From positions 1-64,000 of the forward strand of contig SHXT01000006.1 of the NCBI GenBank assembly GCA_009693175.1: a stretch of 64,000 nucleotides of DNA. The letters run 5' to 3'. The position numbers and the translations under genes were made by a program. Of this stretch, positions 37,646-41,020 are shown piece by piece. A model generated the notes under the pieces. That model was given only the letters and a program-made list of their open reading frames with translations. It was not told where the DNA came from and did not search any database. The DNA comes from Candidatus Methylopumilus sp. Its GTDB lineage: Bacteria; Pseudomonadota; Gammaproteobacteria; Burkholderiales; Methylophilaceae. Numbering within the stretch: position 1 is the first letter of the stretch; each line of letters begins with the position of its first letter.

Positions 37646-39001
37646 ATGTTAGAAAATTTAACTGACCGATTACAGAGTGTTATTAAAACAATCCGTGGCC
37701 AAGCAAGATTTACTGAACAAAATATCAGTGATGCTATGAGAGAGGTTAGGATTGCTTTAATTGAAGCCGATGTTGCCTTGGCTGTTGTAAAAGATTTTGT
37801 CGATCGCGTTAAAACAAAAGCATTAGGCGTCGAAGTTGTACAAAGTTTATCTCCAGGACAAGCAATTATTAAAATTGTTCAAGATGAGCTCACTAGTCTC
37901 ATGGGCGATCAAAATGTTTCATTAGAGCTTAATGTCTCGCCCCCGGCCATTATTTTAATGGCAGGTCTACAGGGCTCAGGCAAAACAACAACATCTGCAA
38001 AACTTGCAAAACTTCTAATTGAAAAAAAGAAAAAAGTGTTACTTGCAAGTGCCGATATTTATAGACCCGCTGCAATTGATCAACTTAAAACATTGGCTAA
38101 AGGTTTGAATATTGAATGTTTTGATTCAAACCCAAATCAAAAACCTTTAAAAATCGCATCAGAAACTTTAGATTACGCAAAAAAACATTTCTTTGATGTG
38201 GTTATTTTTGATACTGCGGGACGATTGGGTATTGATGTTGAAATGATGGATGAAATTAAAGCGCTCCATAAAAAATTAAATCCTATTGAAACTTTATTTG
38301 TTGTAGATGCAATGCAAGGACAGGACGCTGTCAATACAGCAAAAGCTTTTGGCGATGCCTTGCCTCTTACGGGTGTTATTTTAACTAAATTGGACAGCGA
38401 TACCCGAGGGGGGGCCGCTTTATCTGTTCGCCATATTACAGGTAAACCGATTAAGTATATTGGTGTAAGTGAAAAAATTAATGGTCTTGAGCCTTTTCAC
38501 CCTGAGAGAATGGCATCAAGAATTCTTGGTATGGGAGATATTGTAAGTCTTGTTGAAGATGCTCAGAAAACGATCGATGTTAAAGAAGCAGAAAAATTAG
38601 CTGAAAAAGTTAAATCAGGGAAAAATTTTGACTTAGAAGATTTTAAAAATCAAATTGTTCAAATGAAAAAAATGGGCGGCGTGAGCGCTCTGATGGACAA
38701 GATGCCAGCTCAATTTACAAATGCAGCATCTAAAGTTAATCCAGAGGATGGAGACAAGTCACTTCGTCAAATAGAAGCTATTATTAATTCAATGACACCT
38801 TTTGAAAGAAAGAAGCCAGAGATAATAAAAGCCACAAGAAAGAAAAGAATTGCTCTGGGTTCTGGAGTACAGGTGCAGGATGTAAATCGCGTGCTTAATC
38901 AATTTGAAGAAATGCAAAAGATGATGAAAATGTTCTCAAAAGGCGGTTTAAATAAGCTTATGCGTGGTATGGCTGGTAAAATTCCTGGCCTTAGATTTTA
39001 A
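37646..39001 (+). CDS. ffh: Signal recognition particle protein Ffh
   Basis: LMAGLQGSGKTTTSAKLAKLL G1 motif; VIFDTAGRLGID; TKLDSDTRGGAALSV; Met-rich M domain. Confidence 0.98.
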   Translation: MLENLTDRLQSVIKTIRGQARFTEQNISDAMREVRIALIEADVALAVVKDFVDRVKTKALGVEVVQSLSPGQAIIKIVQDELTSLMGDQNVSLELNVSPPAIILMAGLQGSGKTTTSAKLAKLLIEKKKKVLLASADIYRPAAIDQLKTLAKGLNIECFDSNPNQKPLKIASETLDYAKKHFFDVVIFDTAGRLGIDVEMMDEIKALHKKLNPIETLFVVDAMQGQDAVNTAKAFGDALPLTGVILTKLDSDTRGGAALSVRHITGKPIKYIGVSEKINGLEPFHPERMASRILGMGDIVSLVEDAQKTIDVKEAEKLAEKVKSGKNFDLEDFKNQIVQMKKMGGVSALMDKMPAQFTNAASKVNPEDGDKSLRQIEAIINSMTPFERKKPEIIKATRKKRIALGSGVQVQDVNRVLNQFEEMQKMMKMFSKGGLNKLMRGMAGKIPGLRF

Positions 39002-39066: not shown

Positions 39067-39142
39067 GGGTCGGTAGCTCAGTCGGTAGAGCAGCGGACTT
39101 TTAATCCGTTGGTCGTGGGTTCGAATCCCGCCCGACCCACCA
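39067..39142 (+). tRNA. tRNA-Lys (anticodon TTT)
   Basis: GGGTCGGTAGCTCAGTCGGTAGAGCAGCGGACTTTTAATCCGTTGGTCGTGGGTTCGAATCCCGCCCGACCCACCA; full cloverleaf, encoded CCA. Confidence 0.97.
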
Positions 39143-39239
39143 TTTAATGGGCTTTACAGCACATTTCTATTTTAAAAAACAATAGCGCACCAATAGCGCA
39201 CCTTTTATTCTCACTTTCTTTTATGTATGCTTAGCGTAT

Positions 39240-39386
39240 ATGAAAGCTAAAGCACTCACTACACATACCATCATTGCAGAACAGCTACACGTGTTTAAGC
39301 GTGCACGCAGTGCTGTATGGCAGTGCAAATACTTAGCAAATGGTAAATGGATTAAGTTTTGTTGCAATGTGTCTGCTATTAAATAA
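39240..39386 (+). pseudogene. Truncated integrase-like N-terminal fragment (48 aa) just 3' of tRNA-Lys
   Basis: Translated by eye: MKAKALTTHTIIAEQLHVFKRARSAVWQCKYLANGKWIKFCCNVSAIK*; the LHVFKRxRSAVWQCKYxxNGKW pattern resembles the N-terminus of tyrosine recombinases, and location 3' of a tRNA fits. Confidence 0.6.
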
Positions 39387-39437
39387 AAATTGTCATAAAT
39401 TTTTTTTATAAATTTAAGTAAGTAAAATTCAAAAAAT

Positions 39438-39462
39438 AATAATTAATCTCAGATTAATTATT
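39438..39462. repeat. Perfect 12-bp inverted repeat with 1-nt centre
   Basis: AATAATTAATCT-C-AGATTAATTATT. Confidence 0.85.
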
Positions 39463-39507
39463 TTCCAAGCTACACTGATCAGAATAAAAACCTTTTTAAT
39501 TTTAACG

Positions 39508-39524
39508 CTTAAGCGGCGCTTAAG
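39508..39524. repeat. Perfect 8-bp inverted repeat with 1-nt centre
   Basis: CTTAAGCG-G-CGCTTAAG. Confidence 0.85.
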
Positions 39525-39548
39525 TCACACAGAATGCGAAGATTAAAA

Positions 39549-39704
39549 TCATAATAAATCATGAAAGTTTTTCTTACTTCCATCATCTGCAATAATTATT
39601 TCATTAGGCTTGATGGATTGTATTTCAATAGACTTTAAAACTAAAAGAAGTGCTTCAAGCCAATTGTAAGTTTTGATTATTAGGCTGATAGTAATTTTTT
39701 TCAT
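39549..39704 (-). pseudogene. Truncated family 2 glycosyltransferase N-terminal fragment (51 aa)
   Basis: Translated by eye on the minus strand: MKKITISLIIKTYNWLEALLLVLKSIEIQSIKPNEIIIADDGSKKNFHDLL*; SLIIxTYNWxEALxLVLKS...PNEIIIADDGS is the GT2 nucleotide-binding N-terminus, then it stops. Confidence 0.75.
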
Positions 39705-39722
39705 TATATAAAATATAGTAGA

Positions 39723-40655
39723 TTACGTTAATTTTTTTTGTGTAAGGGTGCGAAGAATTTCTAAGGGGCTTTTCTTGGGATCATATTGTTTTGATGCAGC
39801 AAGGTGAAAAGTTTGTTCCATCATGTGTTGTCCAGACATAACTGCATGTGATGTTTGATCAGAAAAGCAAATCCATACAGCGTTAGGCTTAAAGGGCATA
39901 GTTATTTGTGGAGATTTTTTTTGGTATTCTAAATCAGATTTCATTGCATCATGCAGTTCTAACATGATGTGATCATATTCACTTCTTAATGATTTAGTAA
40001 CCCCTATAAGGTTAATTAATTTTGCGTAAAAAGGGGAGTACGGTTTTATTTTTTTAATATATTGTTTGGCTATATTTAAAAAAGGCTCACCAACTCTCCA
40101 AACTCTTGGCGCTCCCTCAGTGTTAACATTAATAAAAACTCTTAAAATTCTTTCTCCGTAATTAGGCCTTGATGGAAATGCATCTACGTGTAATCTTCTA
40201 TCATCAGCGCGCCATGAAGTAACCCGAGAGCTAACTTCAAGTGGTCTAAAGCTAGTGGGCGCTAATTTTAAATAAGGTTTATATTCAGGAAAGGCTGAAA
40301 ATATAAGATTTTTTGCTTGGCTTCTAAATCGAAGAATCATTTTTTTTAATGCTTCAATATCTTCTTCAGGTCCAATAGCACCTTTAATTGAGCCATCTAA
40401 ATTCAGGCTTATATTTCTTGTATTGGGTTTAAGAATATTAGGAGAAAAAAGTTTTATTTCATTTTTATTTATTTTAAATGGAAGACTTTCAAAATATAAA
40501 ACCTTTCCATCTTCGATATCATTTGCCCATTTAGGCTTTGGTTCGCTGAGCAGCCAATGTTTATTTTCAATTTTAATGAGTTGATTATGAGATGATTTTT
40601 TCATTAGTTTAGTCATGCTAAATACTTTGGGAAATAATAAAGTAAATTGATACAA
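39723..40655 (-). CDS. Kdo hydroxylase (KdoO) family protein
   Basis: RLHVDAFPSRPNYGERILRVFINVNTEGAPRVWRVGEPF; TMPFKPNAVWICFSDQTSHAVMSGQHMMEQTFHL; pattern of Fe(II)/2OG Kdo 3-hydroxylases; in-frame ATG at 40616 may be the true start. Confidence 0.75.
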   Translation of the reverse strand: MYQFTLLFPKVFSMTKLMKKSSHNQLIKIENKHWLLSEPKPKWANDIEDGKVLYFESLPFKINKNEIKLFSPNILKPNTRNISLNLDGSIKGAIGPEEDIEALKKMILRFRSQAKNLIFSAFPEYKPYLKLAPTSFRPLEVSSRVTSWRADDRRLHVDAFPSRPNYGERILRVFINVNTEGAPRVWRVGEPFLNIAKQYIKKIKPYSPFYAKLINLIGVTKSLRSEYDHIMLELHDAMKSDLEYQKKSPQITMPFKPNAVWICFSDQTSHAVMSGQHMMEQTFHLAASKQYDPKKSPLEILRTLTQKKLT

Positions 40656-40711: not shown

Positions 40712-40788
40712 TGGCGCGCCCGAAGAGATTCGAACTCCTGACCCCTTGGTTCGAAGCCAAGTACTCTATCCAGCTGAGCTACGGGCGC
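40712..40788 (-). tRNA. tRNA-Arg (anticodon TCG)
   Basis: Reverse complement GCGCCCGTAGCTCAGCTGGATAGAGTACTTGGCTTCGAACCAAGGGGTCAGGAGTTCGAATCTCTTCGGGCGCGCCA; loop CTTCGAA. Confidence 0.95.
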
Positions 40789-40816: not shown

Positions 40817-40893
40817 TGGCGCGCCCGAAGAGATTCGAACTCCTGACCCCTTGGTTCGTAGCCAAGTACTCTATCCAGCTGAGCTACGGGCGC
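40817..40893 (-). tRNA. tRNA-Arg (anticodon ACG)
   Basis: Same sequence as 40712-40788 except anticodon loop CTACGAA. Confidence 0.96.
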
Positions 40894-40926
40894 ATGATGA
40901 CATTATAACTTAATGATATTGAATAA

Positions 40927-41020
40927 TGGCGGAGAGCGAGGGATTCGAACCCTCGATACAGGTTTAAGCCCGTATGCTTCCTTAGCAGGGAAGTGCCTTC
41001 GACCACTCGGCCAGCTCTCC
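40927..41020 (-). tRNA. tRNA-Ser (anticodon GCT)
   Basis: Reverse complement GGAGAGCTGGCCGAGTGGTCGAAGGCACTTCCCTGCTAAGGAAGCATACGGGCTTAAACCTGTATCGAGGGTTCGAATCCCTCGCTCTCCGCCA; long variable arm. Confidence 0.97.

Follow-up and report, generated by a model that had tools for sequence, protein, structure and literature searches.

Within the window, by which we mean the whole 64,000-nucleotide stretch analysed here, a region without intact genes opens immediately 3′ of an intact tRNA-Lys(TTT) gene. The interval 39143–39722 holds only two short ORFs, one on each strand, which bears out an earlier note on this DNA that had described about 580 bp of gene-less sequence at this point. The note had also reported palindromes here, and an AT-rich palindrome with perfect 12-bp arms (39438–39449 and 39451–39462) was verified. 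The flanks are conserved: ffh is 93–96% identical across genomes of the same genus and lies in the same place ahead of tRNA-Lys, and tRNA genes form the right border (Table 1). We refer to the variable segment between tRNA-Lys(TTT) and tRNA-Arg(TCG) as the slot. Besides the tRNAs, an Rfam search of the window returned only sub-threshold tRNA look-alikes.

Table 1. Features in and around the slot that follows tRNA-Lys(TTT), with positions in the window.
Feature	Position	Strand	Basis and remarks
ffh (signal recognition particle protein)	37646..39001	+	ORF; conserved left border of the slot
tRNA-Lys(TTT), intact; putative integration site (attB), bounding the probable scar on its left	39067..39142	+	ARAGORN; Rfam RF00005, 78 bits
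Putative left end of the former island, tRNA to integrase start	39143..39239	+	Differs from the empty-site flank TTTATATCAAGGACTT...
Integrase stub, 48 aa	39240..39386	+	About 43 N-terminal codons (39240–39368), then non-homologous codons and a stop
Putative deletion-junction filler	39369..39570		No detectable relative; contains the AT-rich palindrome 39438–39462
Glycosyltransferase family 2 stub, 51 aa	39549..39704	-	PF00535; homology spans 39571–39704 (codons 1–45)
Kdo hydroxylase, intact; member of the slot's variable surface-sugar module	39723..40655	-	PF11004, E 2.9e-106
tRNA-Arg(TCG)	40712..40788	-	tRNA prediction and locus comparison; conserved right border of the slot
tRNA-Arg(ACG) and tRNA-Ser(GCT)	40817..41020	-	tRNA prediction and locus comparison; conserved right border

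Between the tRNA and the plus-strand ORF, a perfect 11-bp repeat, CAATAGCGCAC, occurs in tandem (39180–39190 and 39191–39201), 40–60 bp ahead of the integrase start, and its two copies are candidate arm-type integrase sites. CAC-rich motifs are found at similar upstream distances in related integrases. On the minus strand, the repeat region also scores as a terminator-like hairpin.

Truncated integrase and glycosyltransferase genes

A comparison with 149 related genomes aligns the 48-aa ORF with the N-terminal residues of intact integrases of 403–477 aa. The alignments begin at the same start methionine, and identity is 51% with a 403-aa protein (37 aa aligned) and 44% with a 412-aa protein (43 aa aligned). 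A 44-position profile of the N-termini of five intact integrases, all taken from other genomes, gives this ORF 52.3 bits (E 5.9e-14), about 40 bits above the best of 2000 shuffled copies (12.2 bits); among 800 stop-to-stop segments of the window, the runner-up reaches 8.3 bits. Both Pfam (PF00589, E 4.7e-9) and PHROGs (phrog_1, E 1.9e-25 and 6e-32) assign the full-length relatives to the integrases. Searches of Pfam and PHROGs with the 48-aa stub alone returned nothing useful, as the stub is too short and the curated models lack this N-terminus. By homology, the ORF is thus identified as the N-terminus of a tyrosine recombinase, beginning 97 bp past tRNA-Lys and missing the catalytic part. Matches of full-length integrase queries to the window break off at about codon 43 (39368); the later parts of the protein, sought with the same queries, are absent from the window in all frames; the gene is therefore truncated rather than merely frameshifted. 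The stub is only 44–51% identical to its closest intact relatives, and the exact parent island is not among them. Viral contigs and phage records yielded no relative of this integrase family, which leaves a prophage origin unsupported.

On the opposite strand, the 51-aa ORF matches PF00535 (E 3.8e-6) and is 64–67% identical to full-length glycosyltransferases of 266–269 aa, which occupy the same place in the same orientation in three genomes of the genus (G003, G013 and G010). This homology ends at codon 45, position 39571. Read from the right border, the window is collinear with G010 and G003 from tRNA-Arg through the Kdo hydroxylase gene to glycosyltransferase codon 45, where the match ends, and the ORF is assigned from these comparisons to the N-terminus of a family 2 glycosyltransferase. 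The genome and profile searches for the first ORF and the PF00535 match with same-locus homologues for the second agree with the earlier note, which had read the two fragments as the N-termini of a tyrosine recombinase and a glycosyltransferase. Between the two homologous segments, the 202 bp of 39369–39570 gave no match beyond chance against about 200 loci by blastn and tblastx, and only 30-base chance matches against phages.

The slot in related genomes

The slot lies in a frame that is fixed across the genus: ffh–tRNA-Lys(TTT)–[variable]–tRNA-Arg(TCG)–tRNA-Arg(ACG)–tRNA-Ser–lysC–alaS. Our comparison used one genome per species, and the contigs of G001, G007 and G012 stop in or ahead of the slot. 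In four genomes (G004, G005, G008 and G009), the slot is empty, with about 235 bp of mutually similar sequence from tRNA-Lys to tRNA-Arg, as expected of the vacant target of a tRNA-integrated island; the sequence following tRNA-Lys in the window is unlike this flank. The slot of G015 spans 8.4 kb and holds a 6.6-kb island, whose intact 394-aa integrase starts about 100 bp past the tRNA. At its far end lies attR, 46 bp that repeat the tRNA-Lys 3′ half (positions 30–76) without a mismatch, and beyond it the native empty-site flank resumes (53 bp, 92% identity to G004). An integrase, a repeat of the tRNA 3′ end and a native flank are together the classic mark of an element that integrated into a tRNA gene by crossover in the anticodon loop. 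In G002, a gap of 325 bp includes 199 bp that align at 75% identity with the integrase end of the island in G015, and this decayed copy of a G015-type integrase end represents a second, independent scar.

The remaining occupied slots contain sugar genes in varying combinations: an epimerase and a glycosyltransferase in G013; an epimerase, a glycosyltransferase and Kdo hydroxylase in G003; another glycosyltransferase-type gene (PF25342), a glycosyltransferase and Kdo hydroxylase in G010; and Kdo hydroxylase alone in G014. No integrase and no att repeat was found in these four modules. Among the genus genomes searched, Kdo hydroxylase is present at this locus only in G003, G010 and G014, and the window adds the combination of integrase stub, glycosyltransferase stub and Kdo hydroxylase. 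The flanking genes of G013 and G015 are near-identical and their slot contents wholly different; for two such close sisters, this points to recent turnover, on a three-gene tree with modest support at several nodes. In G014 (L070), tRNA-Arg(TCG) is missing between the Kdo hydroxylase gene and tRNA-Arg(ACG), as well as from the rest of the 87%-complete assembly. The tandem tRNA-Arg genes are nearly identical, and recombination between them would account for the loss.

The same tRNA-Lys beside ffh is also used outside the genus. In G061, a 45-codon integrase stub, 98% identical to the intact integrase of G034, directly follows this tRNA, and its island is closed by the same type of perfect 46-bp tRNA-Lys repeat. 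In G189, from another genus, an intact 403-aa integrase adjoins ffh. With these integrases at the same site in another genus, the tRNA-Lys(TTT) site is a family-level hotspot. The alignment of the ffh-to-tRNA-Arg interval thus revealed islands in relatives, with neither spacing nor sequence uniform, and the hypervariability that the earlier note had anticipated is observed as empty, intact, decayed and sugar-module states. Its proposal of integration at the tRNA 3′ end likewise finds its counterpart in the 46-bp attR copies at this tRNA in G015 and G061.

Proposed history and alternative readings

We conclude that 39143–39722 is very probably a scar, left where an integrative genomic island formerly occupied the 3′ end of tRNA-Lys(TTT), in a slot that is a hotspot throughout the genus. 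The mostly deleted island that had been proposed from the window alone is supported by an integrase cut after about codon 43 and by what relatives carry at this site, namely islands both intact and decayed. A displaced tRNA 3′ fragment at the far end is not found: no attR or tRNA-Lys fragment, degraded copies included, was detected in the window slot, and no 12-mer is shared. For this reason, we speak of the scar of an island rather than of an island, and the right end and length of the former element cannot be defined.

We infer the following order of events and a single deletion. The window lineage would first have carried a sugar module in the slot, as G003 and G010 do. An island would then have entered at the tRNA-Lys 3′ end, its tyrosine recombinase presumably using the tRNA segment from the anticodon loop to the 3′ end, as is observed in the relatives. 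One later deletion may have removed the integrase from codon 44 onward, the cargo or island body and attR, and also have taken about 80% of the glycosyltransferase along with the module gene distal to it. This would leave what is seen today: the integrase and glycosyltransferase stubs point towards each other, and the Kdo hydroxylase gene behind the latter is intact. Across the genus, the tRNA-Lys/tRNA-Arg slot gains and loses both islands and sugar-gene modules.

The earlier note had the island itself possibly carrying surface-polysaccharide genes. The reading as an island is supported, but the sugar genes are probably not its cargo: they are better read as a separate module resident in the slot and clipped by the same deletion, since the module occurs in four related species in which neither an integrase nor an att repeat was found with it. 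If the glycosyltransferase and Kdo hydroxylase were instead island cargo, the whole of 39143–40655 would be one shrunken island, and it is true that the sugar genes share the slot, lie directly behind the integrase stub and differ between species as island cargo does. We nevertheless consider this unlikely. In G003, G013, G010 and G014, the module fills the slot from one tRNA border to the other, and neither an integrase fragment nor a tRNA repeat was found; the cargo of the intact G015 island consists of other genes, and the sugar module replaces the native flank, for which homologous recombination between conserved borders is the better fit.

The integrase stub could also be a small gene that is maintained for its arm-site DNA-binding domain, serving for instance as a regulator or forming the left end of a non-autonomous element that relies on an integrase from elsewhere. 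In Methylophilaceae, N-terminal integrase stubs end at near-identical codons, from 41 to 49: 41–45 in G037 (L009), 45 in G061 (L006/L217), 49 in G069 and G085 (L007 and L008) and 43 in the window (39240–39368). G061 additionally has a second integrase and attR. However, truncated copies of other lengths occur as well (26, ~91, 116–150, 278 and 343 codons), and the clustering of the ends is weak (scan P ~0.016, assembled after the fact). Moreover, a search of the window genome for further members of the stub's family found none; it returned only two integrases, of 314 and 302 aa, sizes typical of XerC/XerD. That stubs of 41–49 codons at Methylophilaceae tRNA sites are in general a specific product, whether a mini-protein that binds arm sites or the left end of islands that are non-autonomous and use the integrase of another element, seems highly improbable to us, and a maintained gene in the window slightly more so. 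The prospect of ordinary intergenic DNA with chance ORFs is negligible: ORFs of 48–51 aa are frequent by chance and many are listed for the region, but both stubs show highly significant homology in the right frame, with the right start and at the right locus, and stub homology and locus comparison together refute this reading. A scar of a tRNA-Lys island next to a clipped resident module is the reading we retain.

Relation to described tRNA-associated islands

The intact relatives at this site share with the Islander class of tRNA islands (PMC4383910) a tRNA-adjacent integrase, crossover in the anticodon loop and a displaced 3′ tRNA fragment, whereas the window has only a scar, with the integrase truncated and attR lost. 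For Candidatus Methylopumilus, the main text of Layoun et al. 2024 (PMC10872708) describes three main islands, including fGI-2 at tRNA-Lys(CTT), and mentions small integrase-bordered insertions in general terms. The additive flexible island fGI-2 has in common with our locus the bacterial group, a tRNA-Lys target and a related integrase (that at the fGI-2 locus of G009 is 44% identical to the window stub). As described there, however, fGI-2 is at tRNA-Lys(CTT) with GGGGGATTAGCTCAGCTGGT repeats, which by our comparison copy the 5′ end of that gene; the window tRNA is Lys(TTT), beside ffh, with GGGTCGGTAGCTCAGTCGGT, and at the present site the repeats derive from the 3′ half. The replacement islands of the fGI-1 type, according to the same text, resemble the slot in that surface-sugar genes are swapped between conserved tRNA borders, but the present modules are much smaller (1–3 kb) and lie at another locus, fGI-1 being between tRNA-Ser(GGA) and tRNA-Arg(CCT). 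Tycheposons (fGI-3), defined in that text by a tRNA-Met border and an xerD-type recombinase, differ from the window in both respects, as its border is tRNA-Lys and its integrase is of another family. The main text of PMC10872708 makes no mention of 'ffh' or 'signal recognition' or of a tRNA-Lys(TTT) site. Because the tRNA differs from that of published fGI-2 (TTT versus CTT), the site is a new locus of a known phenomenon. It represents a hotspot of island turnover, apparently outside the three main islands of the group, in a genome-streamlined freshwater methylotroph, where sister species between them show the slot empty, with an intact island, with a decayed one and with sugar modules.

A caution concerns the half of the tRNA that is used. 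The islands of G015 and G061 use the tRNA-Lys 3′ half. In G009 (L083), G077 (L086) and G189 (L221 and L170), a stub-related integrase follows a tRNA-Lys 5′ half, cut just past the anticodon, and in G009 and G189 an intact tRNA-Lys lies at the far end of the island, from which it follows that these islands carry the 5′ half. The published fGI-2 repeat ACCAGCTGAGCTAATCCCCC, given as the 'last 20 bp' of tRNA-Lys in the main text of Layoun et al. (PMC10872708), is identical to the first 20 nt of the gene once these are reverse-complemented, in agreement with use of the 5′ half in fGI-2. G009 carries this 20-mer at ~0.43 Mb, and by way of such relatives the genus of the window is taken to be Candidatus Methylopumilus. 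With the fGI-2 repeat coming from the tRNA-Lys 5′ end, related integrases of one family use opposite tRNA halves. Islands with 5′ fragments are known but in the minority; Islander (PMC4383910) counts 159 among 3919. Finally, the intact islands of G015 (L072), G009 (L083), G034 (L222) and G189 (L221) share a second tyrosine recombinase of ~188–205 aa that consists of the catalytic domain only, and those of G015 and G009 also share a 147–148-aa protein of unknown function, which suggests a common backbone with two recombinases.
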